From: Vibrio cyclitrophicus
GTDB taxonomy: Bacteria > Pseudomonadota > Gammaproteobacteria > Enterobacterales > Vibrionaceae
Assembly: GCF_024347435.1 (NCBI RefSeq)
Contig: NZ_AP025481.1
Location: forward strand, 1,426,001 to 1,490,000
DNA: 64,000 bases
Direction of reading: 5' to 3'
The translations under genes were made by a program, and so were the position numbers. Numbering within the stretch: the stretch's first letter is position 1; every line of letters starts with the position of its first letter. Of the stretch, positions 31,877 to 48,948 are shown piece by piece. Under the pieces are notes generated by a model that made no database searches, was not told the DNA's origin, and worked only from the letters and a program-made list of their open reading frames with translations.

Positions 31877-34126
31877 ATGACAAAACACCAAGCTTTGTTG
31901 CTCTCCACAGCGACCTTCTGCTCTATTTTCATATGTAACTCTAGCTACGCTGGCTATGCGATCGTATTACCAGGCCAGCATGAACAAGGGATTAACCTGC
32001 AAGGCTCTGCTGTATCAGCAGACAACGTGGTTGATTGGGAGATCGATAATAGTGACTTAGTGTTTGGCGCTTTCGGCAATAAACGTGATAACGAAAAAGT
32101 TAAAACTATCGGCTATATGTACAACCAAAAGTTAGAGCTGAATTCAGGAGAGTTGGAAAACGAAATTAGAAACACGGCAGAGAAAAACGGGATAGATTAC
32201 GAAGATTTTTTTCTACACTTTGCAGAAGACACCATTCTAGCTGAACTCGATACTACACACGGTGACAATACGCTATTAAACCGTAAGCCTATGATCATTG
32301 GCTATACCGAAAACGAAAAGCATGCGGGTTATGCACTTTATCAGCAGCCGCCTTGGAATGCAGATGTATTTGAACATTTCGACAAAGGGGGCGCACTCTA
32401 CATTTACCATTCGGAGAAATTCGATAGCTTAACATTCGAATTTTCGCGCTTTGCGCAAGGCGGAGAATTCCATATTGAATACCCCATATCGATGAATGAT
32501 CTAGGCCAATCTACGGCATGGGCTCACTTAGAAATAACTAATGATCACACACACAATATGACTCAAAGCCAAGCGGTAAGCTGGCGAGTGCCCTCTGATT
32601 GGGTCAGAGCAACAACTCATGATAGCAGCGGCCAGAGTTACGGTGGTGGGCAATATTTTGGTTCTACATTGGTGAGAGATGGCGGCCGTTTATACGTTGT
32701 CAGAATCCGTTGGCAAGGCAACTCAAGTGATATCCGACCTCGCTTGAATCGAGTTCAATTGAAAGACAGCTTCCAAAAAATCGCTGCCAAAGACCTTCTA
32801 TCTCAGATCACAAATACGAATTCAAGATCTCACAACGAAACAAAGCAATGGCGAAAGGTTCGTGGTTTTGACCAATCGGCGGATCTCAATCAAGACAACT
32901 ATTTATCCCCTTATGAATATGAAAACAGGAACAACAAATCAGCCACGGCTCGCTTTCGTTGGGAATCTCGCGTGATCCCATTCGGGCGAATGTGGAACCA
33001 AAACTCATCATGGGCGCTGACCAATTTGGCCAATCCAAACCTGTTAATGATTCTACAAAATTACTATTCCAAAACCTGGGAGGAACAAGGGCTGGCTGGG
33101 GCCTACAACGACGATACCAATAAACTCATTGGCCGCAATCAATTTGAGGTTTATTCCGGAGGAACCGTCTGTGAGCTTGGGTTTATCGTAGGATCTGTCG
33201 AGGCTGACAATGTCTACAAAGAGCAATTCTCTGCTTTTCTGAATGGTCTGCAGATTAACCAAGATAGACCCTCAATAGGTCTCAACATTGGAACAGCAAA
33301 CCTTTATGGTCGAAATGGACAGGCACACTTGATTAAAGCTGGAGACCTATACTTTCGGGAGCAATACTTATTCCCCTCTACCGGTTTTAGCGGCTTTAAC
33401 GGGTTGTCTAAGTTTTGGGATAACTCAGCACTTGCCTATGCTGGCTCTAACGTTATATTTCAGGCCACCACTCGCTTTGGACGAGTTCAGTTCCTAGGTA
33501 ACAATCAGGACAATTGGCAACAAGATCAATATTCTAACCTCGTAATCTATTACCTCAACGCTCAACCGACACATAGCTATTTTAATCAATGGAGTGGCAG
33601 TTATGTGTATGGAAGTGGTAACACAACTAAAGATAATTATTGGAAAAGTGGTGTACCAAAAAATATCGCCTACCAACCAACGGAGTTACTTAAGATAGAA
33701 CTCGGCAATCCAACTAACCAGATTCCTACTCATTTGAAACCGATTCCTTTGATGATATCGACCTTAAACCCTACCCCCAACGACTACACCATAATTGGCG
33801 ATTCAACTAACAACCACATCATGCACCCAGCGCTGCCAAACGGTATGGTTCGACTGTTACCAACCTATACCTATTTCGCTTATCGAACAGATGAAAACGC
33901 AGTGGAAGGCGGCCCACAAGAAATGGTGGTCGCACGTGAGTTTGAGCATGGTCGCGTACTCTTCCGCACCGATTTCTACGGCAAAAATCCAGACTTCTAT
34001 TCAGCGCCTAAACTCAATATTCCATTAAAAAAACCCATGAGGCCGGTCGATACAAATGGCAACATTGGAGACTATGTGAAAGAAGTGACGCTGAGTGGTT
34101 ATCAAGGCTTACTTCTGCTCTACTGA
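31877..34126 (+). CDS. Large secreted protein of unknown function with EF-hand-like loop
   Basis: A 749-residue exported protein; ATG 31877 follows GGGA at six bases, and the signal peptide MTKHQALLLSTATFCSIFICNSSYA ends near residue 25. I do not recognise the family. Aromatic and Asn/Gly-rich beta-like sequence dominates. Residues 336-347 read DLNQDNYLSPYE, which fits a 12-residue EF-hand/dockerin-type calcium loop (D1, N3, D5, S9, E12). The last 60 residues (REFEHGRVLFRTDFYG ... VTLSGYQGLLLLY) recall the closing beta-sandwich of putative glycoside-hydrolase-like proteins, a weak resemblance only. Two Cys in total are few, as usual for Gram-negative secreted enzymes. Its last 7 bases overlap the end of the convergent permease gene. 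Polysaccharide binding or degradation is a guess. Confidence 0.6.
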   Translation: MTKHQALLLSTATFCSIFICNSSYAGYAIVLPGQHEQGINLQGSAVSADNVVDWEIDNSDLVFGAFGNKRDNEKVKTIGYMYNQKLELNSGELENEIRNTAEKNGIDYEDFFLHFAEDTILAELDTTHGDNTLLNRKPMIIGYTENEKHAGYALYQQPPWNADVFEHFDKGGALYIYHSEKFDSLTFEFSRFAQGGEFHIEYPISMNDLGQSTAWAHLEITNDHTHNMTQSQAVSWRVPSDWVRATTHDSSGQSYGGGQYFGSTLVRDGGRLYVVRIRWQGNSSDIRPRLNRVQLKDSFQKIAAKDLLSQITNTNSRSHNETKQWRKVRGFDQSADLNQDNYLSPYEYENRNNKSATARFRWESRVIPFGRMWNQNSSWALTNLANPNLLMILQNYYSKTWEEQGLAGAYNDDTNKLIGRNQFEVYSGGTVCELGFIVGSVEADNVYKEQFSAFLNGLQINQDRPSIGLNIGTANLYGRNGQAHLIKAGDLYFREQYLFPSTGFSGFNGLSKFWDNSALAYAGSNVIFQATTRFGRVQFLGNNQDNWQQDQYSNLVIYYLNAQPTHSYFNQWSGSYVYGSGNTTKDNYWKSGVPKNIAYQPTELLKIELGNPTNQIPTHLKPIPLMISTLNPTPNDYTIIGDSTNNHIMHPALPNGMVRLLPTYTYFAYRTDENAVEGGPQEMVVAREFEHGRVLFRTDFYGKNPDFYSAPKLNIPLKKPMRPVDTNGNIGDYVKEVTLSGYQGLLLLY

Positions 34127-35175
34127 CCTTTATGAGCATTCAACCTTGGATGTCTTAACTGTTCAAAAAATACATTCACACAGACAAGTAATGGGACCCC
34201 TACTAACATTCCCATAGAGCCCCATAGCCAACCCCAAAATACAAGCCATACAAATAAAATCAGCGGATTGAGACTAAACCTTTTCCCCAGTAATGTAGGA
34301 GTAACCAATTGGCTTTCTATCAAATTAATCGCCAGGAAGATCGCAGCGACCGTCAATGCGTAGCTAAACGACTCAAACTGTATAAAAGAGACTAAAGCAA
34401 AGCACGTAACTGAAACCATCGGGCCAAGATAGGGGATAAAATTCATTAAGCCTGCAAAAGCGCCCCAAAGGAAAGGGTCTTGCAATCCCATCATATAAAA
34501 AGCAAAGCCAACAGTGAGTCCTAAGCAAACATTAATGATGGTGATGGCGCCTATGTAACGAGACAAATCCTTTTGAACAACTTTAACCAATTCAACAGCC
34601 CTACGCTTATCTGAAAAGCATTCAAAAAGAGATAAGCTTTGAGAATAAATTTTTCGACCGTAATTCATCATGAAATACGCCATAAGAAACGCAACCAACA
34701 ACTGAGTAACAATGGTTGGTGTTGTCGTAAGCACTGATTCTATAATGGAAAAAGCCGTGTTATTGGTAAGCCCATCATTGGTAACAGTACTACTCATGGA
34801 GAACCCGGTGGCGTCAGTTAAGCGACTGTTTTGAGTAACCTCACTCACTTCATTAGATACATTCTCAACCAACATTGGTAATTTTGACCACCATTGCTGA
34901 GCGGGCTCACTCAACATATTCAAACTAATCACAACAAAGCCAATAAAACCAATAAGTACAGCCATTACGTTAATGACTCGAGGGATACCGAAGCGAGTAA
35001 GGTAGTTAACTAGAGGGCTACATAGCAAAGAAATAAAAGCACCAAAGATGATTGGCAACAAAAATGGCTTGGCGATATGTAATGTAAAAATAGACATCAT
35101 GAGAACAGCAAGGAGCATAAAACTAGTTTGCAACACACTTCGTTGTCTAAGAATACTGTATTTTTTTGATGTCAT
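34120..35175 (-). CDS. AI-2E/PerM-family membrane protein
   Basis: A 351-residue inner-membrane protein of the AI-2E family with about seven or eight helices: two near the N-terminus, a periplasmic loop (about 80-145, with the usual WWSKLPMLVENVSNEV), and a C-terminal bundle containing the family segments NFIPYLGPMVS and NLIESQLVTPTLLGKRFSLNPL. Members include TqsA/PerM and a sodium/proton antiporter in other bacteria; transport specificity is open. I use the ATG at 35175 after TAGGA; the longer frame to 35253 has no support. The gene lies 100 bp after yqjK-like 35276 on the same strand and may be the last gene of that sigma-54-type operon. Confidence 0.85.
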   Translation of the reverse strand: MTSKKYSILRQRSVLQTSFMLLAVLMMSIFTLHIAKPFLLPIIFGAFISLLCSPLVNYLTRFGIPRVINVMAVLIGFIGFVVISLNMLSEPAQQWWSKLPMLVENVSNEVSEVTQNSRLTDATGFSMSSTVTNDGLTNNTAFSIIESVLTTTPTIVTQLLVAFLMAYFMMNYGRKIYSQSLSLFECFSDKRRAVELVKVVQKDLSRYIGAITIINVCLGLTVGFAFYMMGLQDPFLWGAFAGLMNFIPYLGPMVSVTCFALVSFIQFESFSYALTVAAIFLAINLIESQLVTPTLLGKRFSLNPLILFVWLVFWGWLWGSMGMLVGVPLLVCVNVFFEQLRHPRLNAHKGQ

Positions 35176-35275
35176 TTTATTCCTATGAGTAGGAGGTCTT
35201 GTTTTTGAGGCTTCGTCAATTTGAATCAGGCACTCGATACCGTCAGCCAACACTAACTTGAATTAAAAATGATGG

Positions 35276-35524
35276 TTACTTAAGTAAATTAAGTATTAGC
35301 GATAGCTGTTTATAACCAAAAACAGACGATTTAAAACGATGAGTTCGATTCAAAATTACAACACCAAGGCCTGTGATGCCAAGAGCATACAAGGGGTGCT
35401 TGTGAACAAACTCTTTTCCTTTGTGACGAATAAGTCCCATACAAAGTGCAACTTGACGAGCTCTACTTCTCCCCTCAAGTCTTTTCATTTGAATCTGTCT
35501 TTGTCGATTCTTGAGTGCTGACAT
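35276..35524 (-). CDS. YqjK-like small protein
   Basis: An 82-residue basic protein: a charged N-terminal half with many Arg/Lys (KNRQRQIQMKRLEGRSRARQ) and one hydrophobic segment near residues 45-60 (HPLYALGITGLGVVIL). This matches the YqjK pattern of E. coli, where yqjD-yqjE-yqjK form an operon of membrane-associated stress proteins. AAGGAGGGG lies before the ATG. The start overlaps the end of the yqjE-like gene by 50 bp, so the three genes are tightly coupled. Confidence 0.7.
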   Translation of the reverse strand: MSALKNRQRQIQMKRLEGRSRARQVALCMGLIRHKGKEFVHKHPLYALGITGLGVVILNRTHRFKSSVFGYKQLSLILNLLK

Positions 35525-35963
35525 GTAACCCCTCCTTCAATTGCTCTTTCGTACATTCAAAACCTATAAATTGCTTTAAGTAACTAGAACGAAGTACCAA
35601 GCATATTAGAATCAAACCGAGTGTGAATATAAACGCGCCGTAACCCGCTAACAGATTCAAAGTGAAGTAGTAGATCACTACTCCAGCACCGACGGCGATA
35701 CTAAAAAGAAACAGCGGTAACAACGCAACAAAGAGGAGCTGAAACACAAGACGCTTTTTAAATGCATCAACACTATTGCGAAACTCCAATAAGAAAAGCT
35801 CTAAGGTCGATTGAGACCATTGCTGGGTATGTGTCTGTAATATAGCTAAGTCTTTCCACAATCCATTTAACTCAGAAGCAGAACGTTTAAGATCATCCAC
35901 CTTACGATCGCTCGATTTATCATTGGCAGAGTTTACTGGATCATTTTGACTATTTACCTGCAT
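35475..35963 (-). CDS. YqjE-like (phage holin superfamily) membrane protein
   Basis: A 162-residue protein with two adjacent hydrophobic helices at about residues 75-100 and 105-130 (LLFVALLPLFLFSIAVGAGV, LLAGYGAFIFTLGLILICLV) preceded by an amphipathic charged region. This fits the Phage_holin_3_6/YqjE family, which despite the name are not phage genes. It sits between YqjD-like and YqjK-like genes in the same order as the E. coli yqjDEK operon. The role in membrane stress is not established. Confidence 0.75.
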   Translation of the reverse strand: MQVNSQNDPVNSANDKSSDRKVDDLKRSASELNGLWKDLAILQTHTQQWSQSTLELFLLEFRNSVDAFKKRLVFQLLFVALLPLFLFSIAVGAGVVIYYFTLNLLAGYGAFIFTLGLILICLVLRSSYLKQFIGFECTKEQLKEGLHVSTQESTKTDSNEKT

Positions 35964-35998
35964 AACGGTGCTCTCTCAATTGCGATGTTGATATATGG

Positions 35999-36247
35999 CT
36001 ATTTGATTAACTTCGAGACAGCCCAACCAGCGAGAAACGCACAGCCAACACTCAATAATGGACGCTCTTTAATGATGTTTTCCGCTTTCTCAGACGTGTT
36101 CTTCACACTTTCAGAGCTGGCCTCGAGAGTTTCATGGACCGCCTCTTTCACATTTTCGATAACTTCTACTGCGGCCTCTTCAGCTTTTTCATAAGTTTCT
36201 TCAATTTGTTGTTTGGCTTCTGAATTTTTAGCGTTTGACTTTGGCAT
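35999..36247 (-). CDS. YqjD/ElaB-like DUF883 protein
   Basis: An 82-residue protein made of a long charged amphipathic helix (about 10-58, repeated Glu/Lys/Ala) and a C-terminal membrane helix with a glycine zipper-like end (LLSVGCAFLAGWAVSKLIK). This is the DUF883 (YqjD/ElaB/YgaM) pattern: C-tail-anchored inner-membrane proteins that in E. coli bind ribosomes in stationary phase. AGGAGAAAACTT precedes the ATG. A sigma-54-type promoter lies 80-95 bp upstream at 36326-36342, so this gene probably starts the yqjDEK-like transcript. Confidence 0.8.
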   Translation of the reverse strand: MPKSNAKNSEAKQQIEETYEKAEEAAVEVIENVKEAVHETLEASSESVKNTSEKAENIIKERPLLSVGCAFLAGWAVSKLIK

Positions 36248-36280
36248 AAGTTTTCTCCTTATTTGATTATCATAAGCCAG

Positions 36281-36324
36281 AGAATAATATTAATACTATT
36301 AATCTCTAGCTACTTTAATAATCA
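36281..36324. promoter_or_regulatory. Candidate activator-binding element A (ATTAATA dyad)
   Basis: ATTAATACTATTAAT at 36289-36303 is a 7-bp inverted repeat around a single C. It lies inside a longer stretch (AGAATAAT ... TAGCTACTT, 36281-36315) that recurs at 42051-42087 upstream of the sigma-54 activator gene. Probable upstream activating sequence; it lies about 200 bp before the promoter at 36500 and just downstream of the one at 36326. Confidence 0.55.
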
Positions 36325-36325
36325 A

Positions 36326-36342
36326 TGCTAGCATCGTGCCAA
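36326..36342 (-). promoter_or_regulatory. Sigma-54-type promoter of yqjDEK-like genes
   Basis: Minus strand TTGGCACGATGCTAGCA has the -24 GG and -12 GC separated by exactly 10 bp and matches TTGGCACG completely. Transcription would begin near 36315, about 68 bp before the yqjD-like start. Confidence 0.75.
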
Positions 36343-36499
36343 CTTTCACAAGTACCAGAATAATTGAAGATAAGCTCCCATATCATTAATAAATGGCATT
36401 AATCAATGTAATAATTTCACTAGAAAACATCTATTAATGTATTTTTTACAAAAGCAAAGTAAAACCTTAGACGAAACAAGCTGAATATAGGGTTATTAA

Positions 36500-36517
36500 T
36501 TGGCATAAAAAATGCAA
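36500..36517 (+). promoter_or_regulatory. Sigma-54-type promoter of the helical-protein genes
   Basis: TTGGCATAAAAAATGCAA has GG and GC exactly 10 bp apart and fits the -24/-12 consensus. Transcription would start near 36529, 24 bp before the ATG at 36553. Confidence 0.75.
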
Positions 36518-36552
36518 TAAACCAAATACAGCTTAGAACCAAATGAGGATTC

Positions 36553-36981
36553 ATGAGAAACCAAAGTATATTATCTATTGTTAACCTGATAAAAAGTGGA
36601 AATATTATTTACGAAAAAGCGATATCCAACATAAGAAGTGAAAAGATGGCAAAAAATCTTTTTGATATCTACACGGTAAAGAAATGTGCAGAGTTAAAGT
36701 TACAATCTTTAACTTACTACTCAAAAATACATCAAGAACAGATACCCGCTAGTTATACGATAAATGCCAGAGAGCGCTGTATTGAAGCGGAAGATACAAA
36801 AGGTAAAAACAATCAAGAGCTCTATTTAAAGCACCTAGAAGGTGTCGAGACAAAGATCATTTCCGACATTGAATCACTGCTAGAAACTAACCCTGATTTA
36901 GAAGGGAGAAGAAGATTAAAAGTGGTAAAAAATGAAATGGAATCATGTCGAGACCAAATACACAACATGCGTCATAATTAG
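36553..36981 (+). CDS. DUF2383-like four-helix protein
   Basis: A 142-residue all-helical protein. Its two halves, SIVNLIKSGNIIYEKAISNI and ELYLKHLEGVETKIISDIES, resemble the repeated helices of the PA2169/DUF2383 ferritin-like family (LNDLIEILxDGxxFYExA type). Acidic and Tyr residues at the helix-pair positions are present, but a full metal-binding site cannot be confirmed. It is the first gene after a sigma-54-type promoter (36500-36517) with AAATGAGGATT before the ATG. A second small helical gene follows on the same strand. Assignment to the family is tentative. Confidence 0.55.
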   Translation: MRNQSILSIVNLIKSGNIIYEKAISNIRSEKMAKNLFDIYTVKKCAELKLQSLTYYSKIHQEQIPASYTINARERCIEAEDTKGKNNQELYLKHLEGVETKIISDIESLLETNPDLEGRRRLKVVKNEMESCRDQIHNMRHN

Positions 36982-37088
36982 TTATTAGCGAATGATGGTT
37001 GGAAATCAGAATCAAAGAAAAGGCTTATTTTAATTATTATAAATCAACTGAAATTATAAATACTACTGAGATAAAAAGGAGTAATGAT

Positions 37089-37499
37089 ATGTTGTTTAAA
37101 AAGGACAATGATCCCCTTGAGGTAATTCACTATAAAGGCATAGAAAAAATACTATGTACATTGAAAGATCACTACTTCTCATGTGTTGACCTAATTGAAC
37201 AGAAAGCACATGGGAACATTGCAAGAGCTGCAAATCGATTTATAAAAGTTGAACGTTCATTAATAAACGAAGTAAACACCAAGTTCTGCATTAACAATGA
37301 AGTTAATGACAATGACATATTGAGTCAGCCCCCTGCGTTAATTGTTAGTTATAACGATATGTACCAGAGTAATTTAAGCCTAATTTCTTACCTCAAAAAC
37401 ACTATTAGAAAGTTTAACAATCAACATATGTCTGCTTTTTTCTCCTATTGGGTTGCGGCGTTGCAAGTTGAAAATGATGAGATAGCAAAGCATTTGTAA
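37089..37499 (+). CDS. Hypothetical helical protein
   Basis: A 136-residue protein predicted to be mostly helical; the ATG at 37089 follows AAAAGGAG, while the longer open frame (from 36999) has no ribosome site. The C-terminal third (YNDMYQSNLSLISYLKNTIRKFNNQHMSAFFSYWVAALQ) and the pattern E-x6-H hint at a ferritin-like bundle, as in the preceding gene, but this is not secure. No membrane segment or signal peptide. Probably cotranscribed with 36553-36981. Unknown function. Confidence 0.55.
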   Translation: MLFKKDNDPLEVIHYKGIEKILCTLKDHYFSCVDLIEQKAHGNIARAANRFIKVERSLINEVNTKFCINNEVNDNDILSQPPALIVSYNDMYQSNLSLISYLKNTIRKFNNQHMSAFFSYWVAALQVENDEIAKHL

Positions 37500-37628
37500 C
37501 AGATATAACCCATCTAAAATAGATACGATTAATTAACTTGAGAAGAGAATCAAAGCCTACAACACAATCATTAAACAGTGGGAATAATCTAGGTTTAATT
37601 CTGATCTAATTCTGACATCACTCAAAAT

Positions 37629-37664
37629 AAAAAGCGTCGAGGCATATTGCCTTGACGCTTTTTT
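37629..37664. terminator. Strong bidirectional terminator
   Basis: AAAAAGCGTCGAGGCA (37629-37644) and TGCCTTGACGCTTTTT (37648-37663) pair along 16 bp with one G-U, loop of 3 nt, with T-runs on both strands. It serves the convergent helical-protein and MscS genes. Confidence 0.85.
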
Positions 37665-37687
37665 ACGAGAGGGACCGCTATGTTATT

Positions 37688-38605
37688 CTAGGAAGCGTCA
37701 TCGACAGCCCCAGTCATCATTCTAGACAGACTTTTACCGCCTTTGGGATCAAAATCAAGTGTTCTAATCGGAAACGGTATTGTCATTCCAGCCTCTGATA
37801 ATGACTCTTTAACCGCTATAATACCGTCGTGCTTTGCGTCCATATAACCAAAACCTCCTGGGTACTCAATCCAAAACCAAACCAATAAGTTAACGCTACT
37901 ATCAGAAAAGCTTGAAGCGTAAACCGTCGTATCTTCTTTCCGACTAACATAAGACTTTTGGTTTATCGCTTTGGTTATCACCTCAGCGGCTCTTTTGGGA
38001 CAGTCTGAGTAGGAAATCCCCACAGGGATCTCGACCCTTCTTCGTCCTTTTCGACTGTAGTTCGTCAAAATATTTCGGAAAACCATCTTATTGGGAATCA
38101 TGACGTGTTGACCAGAGAACGTTTCAACCAGCGTATTTCGTAAGTTTATTTTGACTATGGTACCCATGACATCGTTGGAACCAACAACATCGCCAATTTT
38201 AAAAGGTTTACGAATACTCATTGTAATACCTGAAATGAGGTTCTCAGTCATATCTTGAAAAGCAAAACCGATAGCTAAACCTAGAATACCGGCACCGGCA
38301 AGCAACGATGTAACCGTACCTTGGAGCCCAACAAAATCTAACGCGACAAAAAATCCAATAGTAACAATGGTAACCTTAACAATAGAAGCCAGTAAGTTAA
38401 TGACTTCTTGAGAGTCGACAACTCTATTGCTCAATCTTTTAAACAACTTGCCGCTTATGTTGGCAACAAAGATAAAAATAAGAAACGTAACAAAAGCAAC
38501 AATCAGGTTAGGGATAAGTTTAATTGCTTCAACTAACCAATGCTCTAACTTACCCTCTATCAGATGCTGAAACTTCTCTAAGTTAAAAGAGAGATTCATT
38601 TCCAT
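37688..38605 (-). CDS. MscS-family mechanosensitive channel
   Basis: A 305-residue inner-membrane channel opening on membrane tension to release solutes. Helices at about residues 25-50 and 65-85, and the pore-lining TM3 with the Gly/Ala pattern SLLAGAGILGLAIGFAFQDM (about 90-112), then GITMSIRKPFKIGDVV and the beta/vestibule domain (WFWIEYPGG). Length is close to E. coli MscS (286). AAGGAGACACC precedes the ATG. It follows 41 bp after the phosphatase-kinase fusion gene on the same strand, so both share a transcript. A role in hypo-osmotic shock fits the ectoine and betaine genes nearby. Confidence 0.92.
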   Translation of the reverse strand: MEMNLSFNLEKFQHLIEGKLEHWLVEAIKLIPNLIVAFVTFLIFIFVANISGKLFKRLSNRVVDSQEVINLLASIVKVTIVTIGFFVALDFVGLQGTVTSLLAGAGILGLAIGFAFQDMTENLISGITMSIRKPFKIGDVVGSNDVMGTIVKINLRNTLVETFSGQHVMIPNKMVFRNILTNYSRKGRRRVEIPVGISYSDCPKRAAEVITKAINQKSYVSRKEDTTVYASSFSDSSVNLLVWFWIEYPGGFGYMDAKHDGIIAVKESLSEAGMTIPFPIRTLDFDPKGGKSLSRMMTGAVDDAS

Positions 38606-38646
38606 GGTGTCTCCTTCTTATTCAATATGTGGATTATTCAATACAT

Positions 38647-40260
38647 TCATGGAATACAAACCGTTAAGGCTTGCTTATCAATACTTATCTCCAGTGAATC
38701 AGCCGAATACGTCTCTCCATCAATCACGTATGAAATAGGTCGGTCAGAATCAATTTTAACGAGCTGTGCCGAAGCATAAGTAAAGTAACTAGCCTGTTCT
38801 TTCGCTCCGAGACTCGATAACAACAGATCAGATAGAGCGATAGCTCGTTTACTAAGTGAATTTGTGTTTTCCAAATAGGTAATATGCAGCTTCCCATCAT
38901 CCGGCCTAGGAGGCTGTCCCCCTTGAGCAAGCACAGTACTAAAAGGGGAAGAGTTCGCCACGACCAAACTTTGTAGTTTCATACTTTGTGATGGTTGGTC
39001 ATCGATTGAAATTTGAAAATGTTGATTATCGTCGGTGATTACTGCATTGAAGAACCCAGTCAAATACGCGAATTGCCCTTTTTCATTTTTTTGTTCTCGA
39101 TGTGCGTAATCGATCATCTGTTCTTCAAACCCAATACCAAGAAGCAGTAATATTGGTTGTTGATTACAGAACGCCAGATCGATTCTTTTTGAGTTGCCAG
39201 ATAAAATAGCCTCACACGCTTTTTCAACAGGCGATATTTTCGAGGTCAATCCATAAAGCATATGACATAGAGCGTTCGCGGTACCCAAAGGTATAATCCC
39301 GAGTTGTGTATCAGTCTTCCTAACTTGCCTTGCGACTTCACTAACCGTCCCATCGCCACCTGCAACGATAATATGCGCAGTATTCCGGTCTTTGGCCTGC
39401 TTAGCTAATATTTCTGCTGATACTTCTTGGCTAGTAAGAAAAATATCTAAACTGTACTTTCTCGTAAGTTCACGAATAACCTGTTGTTCATTCGCCAACC
39501 ATTTACCACCACCTGCAACAGGGTTGGCAATAAGGCAAGCTTTATGGCCAAGAGTGAGCAAACCTTTATCACTGATTGCTTGAAGTGTTTTCAGTTGTAG
39601 ATGGTTCAATTGGGCTGTACTTCGCACGTCGTTAATACTTTTCAAGACCTGCTCTACAGTAAGTGACGGATTTTTTGCTAAAAGATAGGCAGCTACGACA
39701 AAGACAGAACGTCCTCGACCGAGAGCACAATGCACAACAACCGATCTAGATTGATTGATTTGGGTATCGATCCAATTTATAGCATGTTTAAGCTTATGCA
39801 TTTTAGGGACTTTATGATCAAGAACCGGGGTGTTTAAATAGCGAAATTGATCACCGGTCATTGCACTTTCTAAACCAGAAAACTCAGCTGTAACATCTAC
39901 AATACAATGGATGTTTTGAGATTCTAAGAACGATAAATCTGAAGGGAACAAACGACGAGATACATATAAACCTTTTCCAACCTTCTGTATTGGTTCAACT
40001 TTATCTCTTTTAATTGCCCATGCATTGTACAGTCGAACACCTAAGAAGAATGGAATGAAGATCCATCTAATCCACCACACTATTTTCCCATCGCTAGTCT
40101 TCCTAAATATTGACGGCATATCGAAGATGTAGGCAACACTAACGATGAACATCGACAAACTACACCAGGCAAAAACACCACGGATTATTAGCTGTGGTAT
40201 AAGAGCAGCAGCAAAAAAACAAGCTATAGCAAGAAGCATATAATATTTAATAATAAACAT
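38647..40260 (-). CDS. Dual-specificity phosphatase / diacylglycerol kinase-like fusion
   Basis: A 537-residue two-enzyme fusion. Two hydrophobic helices sit at residues about 5-45, and another at about 70. A dual-specificity phosphatase domain covers about 90-225 with the P-loop H177-C178-A-L-G-R-G-R184-S185 (CX5R intact). A diacylglycerol-kinase catalytic domain covers about 235-535, with ANPVAGGGKW, the nucleotide motif VAGGDGTVSEVARQV and LGIIPLGTANALCHML. Similar membrane fusions occur in other Gammaproteobacteria. The likely theme is phospholipid headgroup turnover, for example phosphatidylglycerophosphate or phosphatidate chemistry plus lipid phosphorylation, but substrates are unproven. 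AAGG precedes the ATG. Downstream is MscS. Confidence 0.87.
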   Translation of the reverse strand: MFIIKYYMLLAIACFFAAALIPQLIIRGVFAWCSLSMFIVSVAYIFDMPSIFRKTSDGKIVWWIRWIFIPFFLGVRLYNAWAIKRDKVEPIQKVGKGLYVSRRLFPSDLSFLESQNIHCIVDVTAEFSGLESAMTGDQFRYLNTPVLDHKVPKMHKLKHAINWIDTQINQSRSVVVHCALGRGRSVFVVAAYLLAKNPSLTVEQVLKSINDVRSTAQLNHLQLKTLQAISDKGLLTLGHKACLIANPVAGGGKWLANEQQVIRELTRKYSLDIFLTSQEVSAEILAKQAKDRNTAHIIVAGGDGTVSEVARQVRKTDTQLGIIPLGTANALCHMLYGLTSKISPVEKACEAILSGNSKRIDLAFCNQQPILLLLGIGFEEQMIDYAHREQKNEKGQFAYLTGFFNAVITDDNQHFQISIDDQPSQSMKLQSLVVANSSPFSTVLAQGGQPPRPDDGKLHITYLENTNSLSKRAIALSDLLLSSLGAKEQASYFTYASAQLVKIDSDRPISYVIDGETYSADSLEISIDKQALTVCIP

Positions 40261-40271
40261 GTTACGCCTTA

Positions 40272-40310
40272 ATTTATCCGTGAATTTAAATATATTTATC
40301 CGTAAATTTA
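40272..40310. repeat. Direct repeat in the leader of the phosphatase-kinase gene
   Basis: ATTTATCCGTGAATTTA (40272-40288) and ATTTATCCGTAAATTTA (40294-40310) differ at one base and are 22 bp apart, i.e. about two helical turns. They lie 11-50 bp upstream of the gene start and could bind a protein dimer. Confidence 0.6.
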
Positions 40311-40324
40311 TCTATCTCTAAATT

Positions 40325-40355
40325 AAATAAAAGAAGGGCTCAAGAATGAGCCCTT
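40325..40355 (-). terminator. Terminator after hemerythrin gene
   Basis: AAGGGCTCA (40334-40342) and TGAGCCCTT (40347-40355) form a 9-bp stem with a 4-nt loop; on the minus strand CTTTTATTT follows. It separates the hemerythrin message from the phosphatase-kinase gene. Confidence 0.75.
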
Positions 40356-40410
40356 AGCTTGATAACAAAGCAGTTTTATACTTATTTAAAGAATTTGATT
40401 ACTTCGTGAT

Positions 40411-40839
40411 TCAAGCAACCTCTTTTTCATATTTACGAGCTAATGTTTCTTTTTGTTCAGTATCTAAGACTCGACCTGCGGTTTGAAAAAAACGCTGCTC
40501 TTCTTCTTCTAAATGATGTTCAACCTTATCTTTTAATGTTTTCATTAAAACAAGCCAAGCTGGTGAAGACATCTCTGTATCATCGAGTTGAGCGAGTATT
40601 TTGTCGATTCCATGATGTTCAGCGATTCCATGTCTAGTCATGTCAATGGATTGATCACTCTCGATCAAAGGTGCATAAAAATGGCGCTCTTCTGCAATCG
40701 CATGCTTGGTTAACTCATTCTTAAGGTTAACATAGAGTTCTTGCCTAGCTTGTGTGTCTCCCGAAGTTTGGAGTAACGCATCCATCAAAAGTCGTTGCTT
40801 TTCATGACTGTCTTTGAGCACATCAAATATATTTTTCAT
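40411..40839 (-). CDS. Hemerythrin-like protein
   Basis: A 142-residue four-helix-bundle protein with the HHE cation-binding pattern. Candidate ligands are His in DVLKDSHEKQ (about 13), H...EERHFY (about 50-57, H-x3-E), HHGIDKI (about 80) and EHHLEEEEQRFF (about 115). These would bind a non-haem di-iron centre as in hemerythrins, with roles in oxygen, nitric oxide or iron stress. AGGAATTAGAC precedes the ATG. It follows the small lipoprotein gene and precedes a terminator, so it ends the BON-DUF1328-lipoprotein transcript. Confidence 0.88.
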   Translation of the reverse strand: MKNIFDVLKDSHEKQRLLMDALLQTSGDTQARQELYVNLKNELTKHAIAEERHFYAPLIESDQSIDMTRHGIAEHHGIDKILAQLDDTEMSSPAWLVLMKTLKDKVEHHLEEEEQRFFQTAGRVLDTEQKETLARKYEKEVA

Positions 40840-40909
40840 GTCTAATTCCTACTTCATTGGTTTACTTTTATGAGGATTTTGGCATCTCATTGCACTCTAG
40901 ATGACAGTT

Positions 40910-41107
40910 CTAGCAATCTTCATCTTTCGCATCTAAATGCTCTTTAATATTTTCACAGCTATCTTCTATTGCGTTTTGAGTATCCTCTACAGCCTCATCT
41001 ACATTTTCCCCGGCTTGTTCCATCGGACCTTCATCACTACATGCCGCAAGTGCAAATGTAATACCCACAATAGTTAAAAAACGGTAAGCGTTCGATTTGA
41101 TGTTCAT
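40910..41107 (-). CDS. Entericidin-like small lipoprotein
   Basis: A 65-residue lipoprotein: signal RFLTIVGITFALAA with lipobox LAAC (Cys23), then a very acidic tail (EQAGENVDEAVEDTQNAIED) with C-terminal Cys at positions 54 and 65. Size and charge recall entericidin/small stress lipoproteins; the two late Cys are unusual and may form a disulfide. GGAG five bases before the ATG. It lies between DUF1328 and hemerythrin genes, in the same operon. Function unknown. Confidence 0.75.
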   Translation of the reverse strand: MNIKSNAYRFLTIVGITFALAACSDEGPMEQAGENVDEAVEDTQNAIEDSCENIKEHLDAKDEDC

Positions 41108-41115
41108 ATAAACTC

Positions 41116-41286
41116 CTAATGTTTGTTTTTATTCAGCAACATAATTACCACTGAAACCAGTAGTGATATTGCAAATATATAAAATATGATCTTTGCTACT
41201 GTCGCAGCAGCCCCAGCGATACCACTAAATCCCAATAGGGCGGCAATAATTGCGACAATAAAAAATATTAGCGACCAGCGAATCAT
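41116..41286 (-). CDS. DUF1328 (YtjA-like) two-helix membrane protein
   Basis: A 56-residue protein that starts at the ATG 41284-41286 and ends with a TAG at 41116-41118. Its sequence MIRWSLIFFIVAIIAALLGF, then SGIAGAAATVAKIIFYIFAI, gives two closely spaced membrane helices with the DUF1328 glycine/alanine turn GFSGIAGAAA. E. coli YtjA is 53 residues. It overlaps no other gene and lies 8 bp before the lipoprotein start, within the BON-to-hemerythrin operon. It is too short for usual gene callers but is certain by pattern. Confidence 0.85.
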   Translation of the reverse strand: MIRWSLIFFIVAIIAALLGFSGIAGAAATVAKIIFYIFAISLLVSVVIMLLNKNKH

Positions 41287-41328
41287 CGTTATTCCCCAAT
41301 TTTTAATAAATTACCAATTGTAGAGAGG

Positions 41329-41874
41329 TTAAATAATATTTAATTTATCCACCACTTTCTCTACATTCGGGGTATTATTTGCTATAGATAAAGCTAAGTC
41401 GTGTTCACTGCTTGATGAAACTGAACCTTTCAAGATAACCACACTGTTTTCGGTTTTAACTTGAATATCGCTACCACTAACATTGGTATTCATTAATAAA
41501 CGAGTGATTACCAGTGTCTTTATGTGAGCATCAGTCAAAGCTTGTACGGCTGCGGGTGTTTTTTCTTTGTCTTCATCAATCACTGTAAGTTCGTTTTTTA
41601 CAGACTTAACGTCATCTAGGCTTAGCACTAACTCTTCTGCCAAATCTTTCTCTGTTTCATTTTTAACCGAGCCAGTTAAAGTAACCACTCGATTTTTAAC
41701 GTAGGTGTTGATGTCAAATGAGTTTAAATTAGTATTCAGTAATAAAGTCGTTTCTGCTTTTCCATCAATCCACGCATCGAAAGTTTCTTTTTCCCACATG
41801 CTATTAGCAAAAACAGTTGATGAAGAAGTTGCAATCAAAGTAGCTAATAATATTTTACTTGCAGTATTTCTCAT
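41329..41874 (-). CDS. OsmY-like periplasmic protein with two BON domains
   Basis: A 181-residue exported protein (signal ends near STVFA, residue 23). Two BON domains at about 33-100 and 112-181, each with the VVTLTGSV / VVILKGSV strand and the closing valine-rich strand (DDVKSVKNELTVI, PNVEKVVDKLNII). This is the OsmY/YgaU-type architecture; BON proteins bind phospholipid and protect the envelope under osmotic stress. AGGAGATAATTA precedes the ATG. A sigma-54-type promoter lies 37-53 bp upstream, so this gene leads the operon BON - DUF1328 - lipoprotein - hemerythrin. The divergent neighbour is the sigma-54 activator. Confidence 0.88.
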   Translation of the reverse strand: MRNTASKILLATLIATSSSTVFANSMWEKETFDAWIDGKAETTLLLNTNLNSFDINTYVKNRVVTLTGSVKNETEKDLAEELVLSLDDVKSVKNELTVIDEDKEKTPAAVQALTDAHIKTLVITRLLMNTNVSGSDIQVKTENSVVILKGSVSSSSEHDLALSIANNTPNVEKVVDKLNII

Positions 41875-41910
41875 TAATTATCTCCTCTAGTTAACTGACA
41901 CTTGTACAAT

Positions 41911-41927
41911 AGCAACCAGCATGCCAA
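41911..41927 (-). promoter_or_regulatory. Sigma-54-type promoter of the BON operon
   Basis: Minus strand TTGGCATGCTGGTTGCT has GG and GC separated by exactly 10 bp and fits TTGGCAYRnnnnTTGCW. Transcription would begin near 41899, about 25 bp before the BON gene. Confidence 0.8.
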
Positions 41928-41974
41928 CTTTTTAACTGACTGAAAATAAAGGATTTACACTTTAATTTTGAAAA

Positions 41975-42087
41975 TTTACCATTGGTAAAATAATCGGAGG
42001 TGTATTAATTACACGAGTATTTTGTAAAAATTATCATCAATGGAGATCCTAGAATAATTAATATCAATACTATTAATTAGCCACTTC
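41975..42087. promoter_or_regulatory. Candidate activator-binding region B
   Basis: Contains TTTACCATTGGTAAA (41975-41989), an inverted repeat of 7 bp around one base; GTGTATTAATTACAC (41999-42013) with GTGTA/TACAC arms; and ATCAATACTATTAAT (42063-42077), one base off the dyad at 36289. The last lies in a stretch that matches 36281-36315 (AGAATAAT, ACTATTAAT, TAGCNACTT). It is 140 bp upstream of the BON sigma-54 promoter, the usual position for an enhancer-binding site. Confidence 0.5.
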
Positions 42088-42209
42088 TACTATCAGTAAT
42101 ATTGTAACTACATTTAAAAGGTGGCGTATAGTAAATGATAGATTCGTATTTGAAGGACATCATGTTATTATCAAGGTCGTTTTCTGTCGTACAAAAAGAG
42201 AGTTAAATC

Positions 42210-43550
42210 ATGTCATTACCGACACTGTTTATAGAGTTAAAAGATGAATTATTGCGGTCTAAAATAAACTCTCTAGATGAATTATCAAGCTTTGAAATAA
42301 TTCAAAGTACTATGGATGTTCATTGGATTGACAAGCTACAACAACTGCAACCAGATACTGCTATTGTTGAAGTCTCTCGATTTACTAACGATGATTTTAA
42401 GTCCTTATCGAGTGCAACAGGATTGGACGAAATGGACTTGATTATTATCAGTACAGGTACGCCAAACAAAAATTTAGACATGATGATGAACCATGGCGCA
42501 ATCTTCCATTATAGAAAGCCCGTCGACATGCAAATATTGGAAGATACCCTTGCAGACTTCAGTCAATACTTCCTCCAGAAGCAGGAAGAAGGGCGTAAAG
42601 TGTCCACCAGCGATTTAGACCAGTTCGGTATGTTAGTCGGTTCTTCTAAGCCCATGCATAAGCTGTATCGAACTTTAAGAAGAGTCGCGAAGACTGACAC
42701 CAATGTTTTGATTGTCGGCGAAAGTGGGGCAGGTAAAGAATTAGTCGCACAAACGATTCACCTTGCCAGTGATCGTAAAAACCAACCTTTTATTGCGATC
42801 AACTGCGGTGCTATCAGCCCTGAGTTAGTTGATAGTGAATTATTTGGTCATGAAAAAGGCGCTTTTACAGGGGCGAATCGCACACACCAAGGGGTGTTTA
42901 GGCAAGCAGAAGGTGGCACATTGTTTCTCGACGAAATCACCGAAATGCCACTTGAACACCAGGTCAAATTACTACGAGTTTTAGAAACAGGTGAATATCG
43001 CCCTGTAGGCAGTAATGCAACGAGTATCGCTAATACTCGAGTCATTGCAGCGACAAACCGAGATCCACAAGTCGCTATTGAAGAACAGTTTTTGAGAGAG
43101 GATCTCTATTTCAGGTTGGCTCACTTCCCCATACATGTCCCTCCATTGCGTGAAAGAGGCGACGACATCGTCGGCTTAGCAAAACATTTTATTGCTCATC
43201 GCAACGCAAATGAAACCACTGCGAAGACCATTTTCACATCAGCGCTTCAAAAAATATCAGCCCATGCATGGCCAGGGAATGTCAGGGAATTAAAACACTG
43301 TATTGAAAGAGCTTTTATATTGGCAGATGAGACGATTAAAGATGAACACCTAATTTTTGATACTCCTCCTTTAGAAACAGGGACTACCGTTGAGGATATG
43401 GTTCCGGCGGGTGTTTCTCTCGAGAAGATTGAGAAAGCGGCGATTATCAATACGCTCGAAGAAAATGAAGGCAACAAAAAGGAAACAGCACAAGACTTGG
43501 GAATCAGCATCAAAACGCTTTATAACAAGCTCGATAAGTATCAAGAGTAG
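42210..43550 (+). CDS. Sigma-54-dependent activator with degenerate receiver domain
   Basis: A 446-residue NtrC-type enhancer-binding protein. The AAA+ domain (about 142-375) is intact: Walker A GESGAGKE at 170-177, the sigma-54-contact loop GAFTGA at 217-222, GGTLFLDE and the arginine finger region REDLYFRLAHFP. The C-terminus carries a Fis-type HTH (KKETAQDLGISIKTLYNKLDKY). Residues 1-130 look like a receiver domain, but the usual phospho-acceptor Asp is Glu54 (TAIVEVS), and the conserved Lys is kept in HYRKPVD. Glu often mimics phospho-Asp, so this protein may be constitutively active or controlled by another signal. No sensor kinase is adjacent. It is divergent from an operon with a sigma-54-type promoter. 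Confidence 0.88.
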   Translation: MSLPTLFIELKDELLRSKINSLDELSSFEIIQSTMDVHWIDKLQQLQPDTAIVEVSRFTNDDFKSLSSATGLDEMDLIIISTGTPNKNLDMMMNHGAIFHYRKPVDMQILEDTLADFSQYFLQKQEEGRKVSTSDLDQFGMLVGSSKPMHKLYRTLRRVAKTDTNVLIVGESGAGKELVAQTIHLASDRKNQPFIAINCGAISPELVDSELFGHEKGAFTGANRTHQGVFRQAEGGTLFLDEITEMPLEHQVKLLRVLETGEYRPVGSNATSIANTRVIAATNRDPQVAIEEQFLREDLYFRLAHFPIHVPPLRERGDDIVGLAKHFIAHRNANETTAKTIFTSALQKISAHAWPGNVRELKHCIERAFILADETIKDEHLIFDTPPLETGTTVEDMVPAGVSLEKIEKAAIINTLEENEGNKKETAQDLGISIKTLYNKLDKYQE

Positions 43551-43743: not shown

Positions 43744-43785
43744 AAAATTTAACAGTGGAGGGTGAGCCCTCCACTGTTAAATTTT
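43744..43785. terminator. Very strong terminator overlapping the aspartokinase stop codon
   Basis: A perfect 19-bp stem, 43744-43762 with 43767-43785, has the 4-nt loop TGAG. Its right arm contains two bases of the aspartokinase stop codon. It has A/T flanks on both strands, so it can terminate the ectoine operon and the activator gene. Confidence 0.85.
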
Positions 43786-45208
43786 ATGCTGCATTCACCG
43801 ATGTCTCGGTTCTTTTATCTTGGTCAAAGAATTCTTCATGCAACGCGCAAATCGCTTGTTGATACTTGTCATCACTCACAACAAATTGCACATTTACGTT
43901 TCTCATAGACGAATGTAATGCAATAGGCGTAACACTATGGTTCATCAAAGCCAATACACCATTAGCGAGCGTTTTATTGGTATCAATTTGAGAACCGATC
44001 GCTGAGATTATAGCGACCATTCGACCTGAAATAGATGCCTGAGGGTAACGTTTCTCAGCCTTATAAGACACCTTGTTTAAACTCTCGGTGCTACCACCTA
44101 GATAATAGGTAATAGAATTGGCGTTCATCTCTTTACCAATAAGGTTCACTCTAGCATCTGCGATAATCTCCATTAACTCATAACTAACATTGTCCGCCTT
44201 ACCGACCATTCCCTGGTCAAAAACATGTAACGCATATACCTTCTGTTTTCCGGCAATGATCTCAATGTGATTCGTGTCTGGTCGGTAATCAGAAGAAATC
44301 AGTGTTCCCTCATGTTCTGGCTCGAAGGTGTTTTTGATTTGCAGTTCTATGCCACTTTCTCGTAACCCAGCAGCCGCATTAGAGTGAATAGCTTCCATAC
44401 CAAGGTTAGCCAGTTGATCGGCAACATCATAATTAGTTGCCCCAATCGGTTTAACCGAACCTACACCAACGACTTTTGGGTCAGCCGAACTAAAGTGATA
44501 CTCCTTATGGATGATCGCCAATGATGCCTCAGTAATAGTAGCGATACGACTAAACGTCATCTCACTGTAACCACGATCATAAGTATGCATCAAACCTTCT
44601 TTGCAATACGCATAACCAGTTACTATGGGAAGCTCCTCAGTAACATCAATGTCAGAGAAAGCCTCTCTAATCGTATCGTCCAAACTTTGAGGGGTTTTGT
44701 TGTCCCAACCAGAAAGGTCAACAAAGGTCGAATTTATACCAATGTTTTTTAATTTAAGAGCCGTGTTGTATGCACTATGTGACTCTCCAATTGAAGAAAG
44801 AAACTCTCTAATCTGTGGTAAATAATGTCTCAGTGAAAACTGTCCGTATTGGCACGTTTCAAGAATGTTAGTAATACAGTTTTTGGCTTCTGAAATACGA
44901 GACCGGATGAACTTATCTGCTCTCATACGATTCATTGGATCCGCAAAAATATGCTCATTGGTCAATAGCATGCGGCGTTCAATATAAGATAGAGCATCCT
45001 TCCACGAATCGTCACGCATCGCTATCAATTGATAGACACCAGGCTTACCTGTTTTTTTACATTCCAACAATGCATCCGTCATACCGCTGTAAGCGGACAC
45101 AACAAAGATTCGGTTATAAGGATTTTGAGGGCGGAGAATAATATTGTCGAGCACAGCATCAAATGCTGTCATTGATGTACCGCCGATTTTTTCTACGGTA
45201 AATGTCAT
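43784..45208 (-). CDS. ask: Aspartokinase of the ectoine operon
   Basis: A 474-residue aspartate kinase, which phosphorylates aspartate at the head of the pathway to aspartate semialdehyde, ectoine precursor. The N-terminal motif VEKIGGTSMTAFD (KFGGTS-type) marks the kinase; two ACT-like regions lie in the C-terminal third. Operon-linked Ask_ect enzymes are known to resist normal feedback inhibition, which is family knowledge rather than something visible here. The start is the ATG at 45208 after AAAAGG; a longer frame to 45271 is unlikely. It is the last gene of ectABC-ask, 78 bp after ectC, with the terminator overlapping its stop. Confidence 0.92.
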   Translation of the reverse strand: MTFTVEKIGGTSMTAFDAVLDNIILRPQNPYNRIFVVSAYSGMTDALLECKKTGKPGVYQLIAMRDDSWKDALSYIERRMLLTNEHIFADPMNRMRADKFIRSRISEAKNCITNILETCQYGQFSLRHYLPQIREFLSSIGESHSAYNTALKLKNIGINSTFVDLSGWDNKTPQSLDDTIREAFSDIDVTEELPIVTGYAYCKEGLMHTYDRGYSEMTFSRIATITEASLAIIHKEYHFSSADPKVVGVGSVKPIGATNYDVADQLANLGMEAIHSNAAAGLRESGIELQIKNTFEPEHEGTLISSDYRPDTNHIEIIAGKQKVYALHVFDQGMVGKADNVSYELMEIIADARVNLIGKEMNANSITYYLGGSTESLNKVSYKAEKRYPQASISGRMVAIISAIGSQIDTNKTLANGVLALMNHSVTPIALHSSMRNVNVQFVVSDDKYQQAICALHEEFFDQDKRTETSVNAA

Positions 45209-45286
45209 AAAAGACCTTTTGTTCTTGAAGAGATTAAAGACTAAATAATAGGGAGCGGGGTGAGATATCACCCCTGAATATATGGG

Positions 45287-45673
45287 TTAATCAACGAGTG
45301 GATAAACGCCGTTTTCATCGTGTACTTCAGCGCCAGTAATTGGTGGGTTAAACACACAAGCCATTGTCATTTCTTTGTTTTTATATGCGCGTAAATAATG
45401 CTCATCATTCTTATCTAGGATGTACAACGTACCGGGTTTGATTGGGTAAGTTTTACCACCAACGACTTCAATCTCCCCTTCACCACTCATACAAAACACA
45501 GACTCCAAGTGGTTTTGGTAATGGATATGTGTTTCTGTCGCTTCGTAAATTGTTGTGATATGAAAAGAAAATCCCATATTGTCATCTTTCAATAACATGC
45601 GAGTGCTTTCCCAGTTATCCGATACAATACGTCTTTCACTATTACGACATTCATCAAGTGTTCTAACAATCAT
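45287..45673 (-). CDS. ectC: L-ectoine synthase
   Basis: A 128-residue cupin-fold enzyme that cyclises N-gamma-acetyl-diaminobutyrate to ectoine. Cupin motif [21 protein letters not shown] (about 52-72) with the metal-binding Glu/His, and [18 protein letters not shown] (about 80-97). Length and sequence are typical for EctC. GGGAGAG precedes the ATG; 13 bp separate it from ectB. It makes the compatible solute that protects the cell at high salt. Confidence 0.96.
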
Positions 45674-45686
45674 TTTACTCTCCCTA

Positions 45687-46952
45687 TTACGATGCTTTCT
45701 TGAAATGCTTGGTTGCTACCACTTCAACTGAGTCTTCGAAAATAGTTAAACCTTGCATCAATTCCGATTCTGAAATGGTTAATGGACAAAAGAACTTCAA
45801 GATTTCATCGTTTGGACCTGCGGTCTCAATTACCATGCCCTTGTCAAAACACACTTTTGCAATCTCATCAGCTGTGTTCCCATCTTTACATTCAATGCCA
45901 ATCATCATTCCGCGTCCCTTGCGTTGAACAAATAGCTCAGGGAAACGCTTGAGATTGCGTTGAATGACATCATCGACCATGCTTGAGCTACGTTGAATAT
46001 GATTTTCAAAATCATCATTTGACCAATACATTTCTAACGCTTTAGCAGCAGTAATGAACGCATGGTTGTTACCACGGAAGGTGCCGTTGTGTTCTCCCGG
46101 CTCCCACTTGTCTAGTTCAGGCTTTAATAAAACCACAGCCATCGGTAAGCCATAACCACTTATCGACTTAGATAGCGTAACGATATCTGGTTTTATACCT
46201 GAAGGTTCAAAGCTAAAAAACGTTCCTGTTCGACCACAACCGGCTTGAATATCATCCACAATAAATAGGATATCGTGGGCTTTACAGATTTTGCTTAACT
46301 TCTGTAGCCACTCATTTGAAGCGACATTTAACCCACCTTCACCCTGAACCGTTTCCAATAAAACGGCAGCAGGTTTATCCATACCAGCGGAATTATCGGT
46401 TAACATCGTTTCAAATAATTTTAAACCATCGATTCCAGCGTAACCTTCAAATGGCAAACGCGTAACGTTGTTGAGATTTGAGCCCGCACCTTGCCTGTGG
46501 TGTTGGTTGCCTGTAGCAGCCAATGCACCCGCCGTACAACCATGAAAACCATTGGTAAATGCAACAATACTGCTTCGACTTTTTACTTTTTTCGCCAACT
46601 TAATCGCTGCCTCAACCGCATTTGTTCCTGTCGGGCCGGTAAATTGAACTTTGTAATCTAATGCTCGAGGTTCCAAAATAAAGCGACTAAGAGCTTCTAG
46701 GAATTCAGCTTTGGCTTCTGAATGCATATCCAAGCCATGTGTAATTCCATCCATTTCAATATACTCAAGTAAAGCTTGCTTAAGTATTGGATTGTTATGA
46801 CCGTAATTGAGAGATCCTGCTCCAGCAAGAAAATCGAGGTAACGATCACCTTGTTTTGTTTCAAGCCAGCAGCCTTTTGATTTAGCAAAAGTGACTGGAA
46901 AACTATTCGAGTATGAACGTACGTTAGATTCCTGCTTTTTAAAAATATCCAT
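45687..46952 (-). CDS. ectB: Diaminobutyrate--2-oxoglutarate transaminase
   Basis: A 421-residue class III PLP aminotransferase forming L-2,4-diaminobutyrate from aspartate semialdehyde and glutamate. The PLP lysine sits in [16 protein letters not shown] (about residue 268), preceded by [17 protein letters not shown] (Asp interacting with the pyridine nitrogen). N-terminus [20 protein letters not shown] is the EctB signature. It is the second gene of the operon (35 bp after ectA). The Shine-Dalgarno before ATG is weak, so translation may be coupled to ectA. Confidence 0.96.
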
Positions 46953-46987
46953 GATAAGGCCGTTATTTGATTCCTATAAGTTAATGA

Positions 46988-47521: not shown

Positions 47522-47617
47522 ACCGAGAAATTCCTTTGAACTCTAATTAAATTCCTTTTTATTATGAGCATTTACCCCCTACTAAGATCAACACCTTAAC
47601 TTTAAAAAACAAAAATT

Positions 47618-47917: not shown

Positions 47918-47987
47918 TCTTATCTAACATATCGATGAATAATGAACTCAGAGGAAACGAGTCCAGAAATATCAGCTTGGAAAAGGT

Positions 47988-48904: not shown

Positions 48905-48948
48905 TCACGGCCTTAAGTGTCAGCAGTACGGACAATGAATCAAATGTA

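Follow-up and report, generated by a model that had tools for sequence, protein, structure and literature searches.

NtrC-type enhancer-binding proteins such as NtrC, AtoC, ZraR and PspF combine an AAA+ domain carrying a GAFTGA motif with a Fis-type helix-turn-helix (HTH) domain, and work with paired upstream palindromes on sigma-54 promoters. The phage-shock regulon of PspF is a sigma-54 envelope-stress regulon with a dedicated, divergent activator that has no receiver domain; FleQ/FlrA and VpsR are enhancer-binding-type proteins with atypical receivers, which control flagella or polysaccharide. General-stress proteins of the type encoded by yqjDEK, osmY and elaB, which are sigma-S genes in Escherichia coli, are usually discussed as sigma-S targets. 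Here we describe a locus of Vibrio cyclitrophicus in which similar types of protein are preceded by sigma-54 promoters instead, and in which the gene for a sigma-54 activator stands divergent to one of the operons. It lies in a stretch of 64,000 nucleotides (the window), part of the 1.73-Mb second contig of a 5.28-Mb genome; the block analysed covers 36248-43550, and the gene runs together with the activator span 34120-43550. The system shares with the NtrC type the AAA+ domain with GAFTGA, the Fis-type HTH, the paired upstream palindromes and the sigma-54 promoters, but the receiver of its activator is without a phospho-acceptor and its putative targets are envelope and survival genes. Targets and enhancer also differ from those of the PspF regulon. 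With a probability of about 0.85, we consider the locus a dedicated sigma-54 regulon of envelope/survival genes with its own activator.

Three -24/-12 sites, which a first-pass annotation had proposed from the letters of the DNA, were recovered at the same places with exact GG-10-GC spacing and in the TTGGCAY..GC context. They are found at 36326-36342 on the minus strand (TTGGCACGATGCTAGCA) in front of the YqjD-like operon, at 36500-36516 on the plus strand (TTGGCATAAAAAATGCA) in front of the DUF2383 (PA2169-like) genes, and at 41911-41927 on the minus strand (TTGGCATGCTGGTTGCT) in front of the BON operon. At a score of 9.0 or more these were the only sites within 36248-43550, in line with the annotation, which had seen no other in the block. 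In 400 dinucleotide shuffles of the block, the mean number of sites scoring at least 10.5 was 0.06 (maximum 1), compared to three observed. Across the genome, TTGGCAYN7GCW gave 91 matches versus 36 for a reversed control, and CTGGCAYN7GCW 41 versus 31. Since reversed patterns also match often genome-wide, a single sigma-54-like site proves little, and the weight of the evidence rests on conservation and on the paired enhancer, not on lone sites. A site at 57344-57360 with a score of 11.0 lies inside an aldehyde dehydrogenase-like open reading frame of the opposite strand, is without an enhancer pair and is probably an intragenic chance match.

A full-length activator ortholog with at least 60% identity was found in 23 of 196 genomes of the genus, V. 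cyclitrophicus included (next listed match 43%), and the 22 other loci were fetched for promoter comparison. A sigma-54 site preceded the BON gene in all 21 relatives in which this gene is linked, the YqjD-like gene in all 19 with a linked copy, and the DUF2383 genes in 19 of 20, the exception being locus L160. In the rearranged loci L160, L161 and L162 the lipoprotein gene has a sigma-54 site of its own. The comparison of related vibrios, which the annotation had put forward as a check, therefore shows the promoters to be conserved among the relatives that hold the activator. A reading of the three sites as accidental matches, or as neutral sequence passed on by descent, appears vanishingly improbable: the 36 matches of the reversed control of TTGGCAYN7GCW show that such patterns do arise by chance, but the sites were kept at 60 to 75% activator identity though their flanks diverge, and they were kept through rearrangement and in other genera, together with phased enhancers.

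BON (E 1e-15 or better) was present in exactly the 23 of 196 genomes that hold the activator; it was found in none of the activator-less genomes of the genus, which leaves no natural BON control. The diacylglycerol (DAG) kinase was detected in 31 genomes, namely 21 of the 23 activator genomes and 10 others, nine of the latter with intact copies at 40-47% identity. No sigma-54 site stood directly before the homolog in the five of these ten activator-less genomes that were checked (L303, L304, L305, L307 and L312).

Alignment of the intergenic regions first revealed the palindromes, as conserved blocks upstream of each promoter. The annotation had missed this feature. The 13-bp palindromes, KGWAA-N3-TTWCM, lie upstream at fixed distances and are paired at all three window promoters. 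At the BON promoter they occupy 42001-42013 (TGTATTAATTACA), 86 bases from the -24 element, and 42023-42035 (TGTAAAAATTATC), 108 bases from it and 22 bp from the first palindrome. The divergent yqjD and DUF2383 promoters have one pair in common, consisting of palindrome A at 36407-36419 (TGTAATAATTTCA; 77 bases from the yqjD and 93 from the DUF2383 promoter) and palindrome B at 36438-36450 (TGTATTTTTTACA; 108 and 62 bases, respectively), 31 bp from A. Within the genus the spacing at BON was 22 bp in 19 of 22 rows (20 in L158), and at yqjD 30-32 bp in 18 of 19 rows (30 in L159, otherwise 31-32), a count that leaves out the L160 row with its poor matches; L160, L161 and L162 did not fit the genus spacing table.

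To avoid circularity, a de novo symmetric motif search was trained on 35 promoters from outside the genus, and the resulting matrix replaced a first one that had included the window in its training. The motif, TGTAAAATTTACA, reached a log-likelihood of 156 from 60 starts, versus 43-51 in five shuffled sets with 25 starts each. Applied to the window, the outside-genus matrix, on which all scores in bits given here are based, returned as the best two 13-mers at each promoter the palindromes already seen. Random 150-base stretches of the window had a best 13-mer above 8 bits in 4.1% of cases and above 10 bits in 1.3%. With four near-duplicate loci dropped, 50 of 52 genus promoter rows held the motif above 9 bits, and at least two such palindromes were present at 14 of 15 yqjD promoters and at 16 of 16 promoters of the DUF2383 genes; at BON the farther palindrome was often the weaker one. 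Pooling all sets gave the motif in 80 of 84 rows (eight near-duplicates dropped), the outside-genus rows among them having trained the matrix. Some 230 kb from the first and on the same contig, genome G026 carries a second BON-DUF1328-lipoprotein-hemerythrin operon (L338, G026:C2, about 737000), which keeps the sigma-54 promoter and both palindromes, the farther one below 9 bits. In this second operon the DAG kinase is interrupted by a stop.

The distances between palindrome and promoter cluster at about 65, 76, 87, 98, 109 and 120 bases. The best helical period was 11.0 bp with R=0.74 for a reduced set of 44 promoters, a set that leaves out the DUF2383 promoters (their pair being in common with yqjD) and still holds several loci per genus, so that the figure overstates independence. 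None of 20,000 uniform simulations at fixed period and none of 2,000 maximised over periods reached this value.

We scored 148 sigma-54-like sites of the genome with the outside-genus matrix, including 117 of the 132 exact matches of [CT]TGGCAYN7GCW; off-pattern sites were covered only inside fetched stretches. The enhancer pair was present at three of them, the window promoters, with scores of 28.2, 28.2 and 23.3, while the next-best site reached 12.5. A wider regulon was thus not found among the 148 sites, and because three alone carry the palindrome pair, the regulon looks closed within the 117 of 132 exact matches scored. Since the activator occurs in the same 23 genomes as BON and the enhancer pair at no other scored site, the divergent activator is very probably cognate to these promoters. 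It could be argued that the promoters are real but respond to other activators in the cell, and that the divergent gene is a neighbour with another job. Bacterial enhancer-binding proteins can cross-activate, and eight matches at E 1e-60 or better, this one included, were seen in the genome (8 of 22 first-look candidates scored). The shared presence of activator and BON in 23 genomes, the restriction of the paired enhancer to these three of 148 sites and the recurrence of the same motif near orthologs of the activator, rearranged loci included, nevertheless make this very unlikely.

A second objection concerns the weight of sigma-54 at these operons, which may be transcribed mainly by sigma-S or sigma-70 as in E. 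coli, with sigma-54 adding a minor or conditional boost. The homologs are sigma-S targets in E. coli. What is conserved upstream of BON, in the part of the alignment considered, is however the -24/-12 site and the palindromes, and within that scope we regard a mainly sigma-S or sigma-70 control as rather doubtful.

The search extended well beyond the genus. An activator match at E 1.6e-128 or better was seen in 29 of 394 genomes of the order; these spread over 11 genera and 7 families and include V. cyclitrophicus itself and three other members of the genus. We fetched 25 loci outside the genus (L189-L213) and one more distant locus. Around the activator, many of these genes are found again, although their order has changed. 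A sigma-54 site with a score of at least 9 stood before BON and/or DUF1328 in 21 of the 25 loci, and the enhancer motif accompanied it in 20, L201 having the site without the motif. At class level, 2 of 368 other genomes gave an activator match at E 1e-95 or better. Paraglaciecola marina and Gilvimarinus agarilyticus have linked targets and sigma-54 sites, with activators that match at 48-49% across the AAA+ and DNA-binding portion alone, and the same linkage was seen in Salinivibrio kushneri (activator 45%). The best of the named activator homologs comes from Vibrio splendidus (99%), and match names place close homologs in V. splendidus, V. parahaemolyticus, Shewanella, Psychromonas, Rheinheimera and others. 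In genome G495, a Dps-like gene (L208:11591-12119) that scores below the Dps cut-offs is preceded by a sigma-54 site, with palindromes at 108 and 87 bases, which suggests an extra target in that genus.

Some loci depart from this pattern. In L213 (G413) frame breaks split both the activator and the BON gene, but the promoter and enhancer of DUF1328 are still present, perhaps a decaying regulon. The activator gene was also observed on plasmids: a copy 75% identical to ours (L339) is on a 217-kb plasmid of V. alginolyticus (NZ_CP099958.1), and V. pelagius has the gene on plasmid records of 241 and 396 kb. At two beta-proteobacterial plasmid relatives (L341 and L342) the target genes are absent.

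The activator is encoded at 42210-43550 on the plus strand. Its assignment as a divergent sigma-54 activator was borne out by Pfam matches to Sigma54_activat (PF00158, 2.4e-68) and HTH_8 (1.5e-14), and the Walker, GAFTGA, RED..R and HTH residues were invariant or almost so in 32 sequences. All 25 NCBIfam matches shown for the protein fell far below cut-off; the best-scoring model was PrsR, the PEP-CTERM response regulator (TIGR02915), with 312.1 bits compared to a cut-off of 502.6. Residues 1 to about 115 form a degenerate receiver. This assignment rests on a profile comparison, in which the first 115 residues matched those of 12 other proteins that have receiver domains, with an hhalign probability of 95.9 and E 6.5e-9 (single comparison); at E 0.1 Pfam gave no receiver for the window protein, and it reported one in the more distant activator of L214. 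In 47 sequences, counted without the split copy L213 and the distant L214, the column of the phospho-accepting Asp holds E in 32, G in 7, Q in 4, D in 2 and A in 2, with Glu54 in the window protein, and the conserved receiver Lys is kept in 21. Because 45 of 47 sequences have lost the phospho-acceptor, we propose that the signal is something other than phosphorylation at this Asp, and the activator is probably phosphorylation-independent. The columns that hold the strand-1-end Asp residues in L214 contain D in 0, 5 and 29 of the 47 sequences, so the acidic pocket seems only partly lost. Together with the receiver-like N-terminal fold, the 21 retained Lys and the two retained Asp, this would fit a response regulator to which a distant kinase still transfers phosphate, perhaps at another residue. 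The composition of the phospho-Asp column argues against it, as does the fact that no kinase gene was recognised among the families found in the block, and we hold such a regulator to be unlikely. As to other modes of control, the arginine motif by which FleQ senses cyclic di-GMP was not seen by eye in the linker of the window activator.

The activator of L214 (L214:7276-8613) has a normal receiver with the Asp present, lies near DUF1328, lipoprotein, MscS and hemerythrin genes, and its gene is preceded by a sigma-54 site of its own; it may perhaps represent the phosphorylated ancestor type. Of the 25 order-level loci, 12 have a DUF2383/helical-protein profile match directly beside the activator, for the most part at weak E-values, and a thirteenth (L196) has such a neighbour by a sub-threshold Pfam match; the helical neighbour in L209 is without a DUF2383 match in Pfam. 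Such a DUF2383-like helical protein is, as a guess, a candidate partner of the activator.

The block 34120-43550 comprises three gene runs besides the activator gene. The leftward run from 41874 starts with the two-BON-domain, OsmY-like protein (41329-41874, minus strand; Pfam BON 8.6e-33 in 2 stretches), followed on the same strand by a DUF1328 small membrane protein (41116-41286, Pfam), a conserved small lipoprotein-like protein (40910-41107, named by reading and without a Pfam match), a hemerythrin-like protein (40411-40839), a dual-specificity phosphatase/DAG kinase-like protein (38647-40260) and an MscS-type mechanosensitive channel (37688-38605). The last two genes probably belong to the BON operon. 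The hemerythrin-like protein passes the Pfam Hemerythrin cut-off; its nearest NCBIfam model is PA2171, with 57.6 bits far from the equivalog cut-off of 190 bits. Rightward from 36553 run the DUF2383, PA2169-like gene (36553-36981, plus; Pfam, with a relative in L148 matching TIGR02284 below cut-off) and a second small helical protein (36999-37499, plus). The leftward run from 36247 holds, all on the minus strand, a YqjD/ElaB-like small protein (35999-36247), a YqjE-like membrane protein (35475-35963, holin-X superfamily, below cut-off), a small protein in YqjK position (35276-35524) and, as the last gene, an AI-2E family transporter (34120-35253).

The gene names of the first-pass annotation were thus upheld in part. 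BON, DUF1328, hemerythrin and one DUF2383 protein scored above the Pfam cut-offs, whereas YqjD and YqjE drew weak, sub-threshold matches in the window or in relatives (for the YqjD/ElaB family, ElaB or DUF883_C, every one below cut-off). The supposed YqjK is without a family match and placed by gene order, and the second gene called ferritin-like, at 36999-37499, has no Pfam match. The basis of the YqjD/E/K names is therefore weak similarity together with gene order.

Ectoine genes (ask-like, ectC, ectB and ectA; 43784-47521, named by reading without a family search) adjoin the regulon, and betaine and ProVWX uptake-like genes, also named by reading, follow at 54685-62300, so that 43784-62300 reads like a compatible-solute neighbourhood. 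Placing the ectoine genes under the same circuit was considered and found unsupported: ectA has no site in front, and ect genes adjoin the activator locus in just 4 of 22 relatives (the L143 locus ends about 0.8 kb past the activator).

Relatives of the DUF2383 and hemerythrin proteins, at scores below cut-off, are PA2169 and PA2171 of Pseudomonas aeruginosa. PA2171 binds ribosomes and FtsZ and raises persisters, according to a paper in whose text the term RpoN is absent (PMC13041383). A V. parahaemolyticus RpoN study lists phage shock protein A (VP1173) among RpoN targets, its main tables giving other promoters than those described here (PMC9817140). No published description of the regulon was found in the literature covered, with subscription journals mostly, and supplements, outside that coverage; a subscription paper or a supplement could contain one.

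From the sites, their conservation, the motif and its phasing, the co-occurrence and the degenerate receiver we infer binding, RpoN dependence, a switch and a function as follows. Sigma-54 RNA polymerase would wait at the three promoters, and dimers of the activator would bind the TGWAA-N3-TTWCA palindromes located some 60-110 bp upstream, whose pairs are spaced by two or three turns of the helix and favour one face of the DNA. The activator would then form an AAA+ ring and open the promoters via looping. The pair between the divergent promoters would serve both the YqjDEK-like operon and the DUF2383 genes, and the second pair the BON-DUF1328-lipoprotein-hemerythrin(-phosphatase/DAG kinase-MscS) operon. 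Since its receiver lacks the phospho-acceptor, the activator probably responds to a ligand or a partner protein and not to a histidine kinase. The products may shield envelope and ribosomes from osmotic, stationary-phase or similar stress; judging from the target families, a role in envelope and survival stress is likely.

Conservation, the paired enhancer and co-occurrence support, at the level of sequence, the earlier proposal that an envelope/stress set is under sigma-54 control by its own activator. Several observations weigh against it. The label "stress" relies on gene families, several of which match below cut-off, and a sigma-S or sigma-70 promoter could act in parallel. The relatives compared are related species, not independent samples. 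Both BON palindromes exceeded 9 bits in only 6 of 18 genus rows (at least one in 18 of 18), no motif was found at the yqjD promoter of L160 or the DUF1328 promoter of L201, and the Gilvimarinus BON promoter has the motif only farther out, at 166. In L160 (G179) the BON homolog is unlinked, 39% identical and without a site; in an automatic test L205, L207, L209 and L210 showed no sigma-54 site at the usual target genes, and the plasmid-borne activator copy of V. alginolyticus has no target within 9 kb.

In summary, we read the locus as a sigma-54 regulon that is new and widespread, that has a recognisable enhancer code and whose activator is atypical. Going further, and tentatively, it is possible that marine gammaproteobacteria run a sigma-54 survival programme beside the RpoS response, all-or-none in character and comprising envelope, ferritin-like/Dps and ribosome-binding proteins, in which the dead receiver serves as a dock for a partner, possibly the DUF2383-like neighbour, and in which the enhancers follow a helical code. 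Given the sequence and spacing of the enhancer, direct tests can be made of binding, of looping and of the signal to which this probably kinase-independent activator responds. If true, a conserved sigma-54 regulon for general-stress proteins would mean that these are under an activator-gated switch with little leak.

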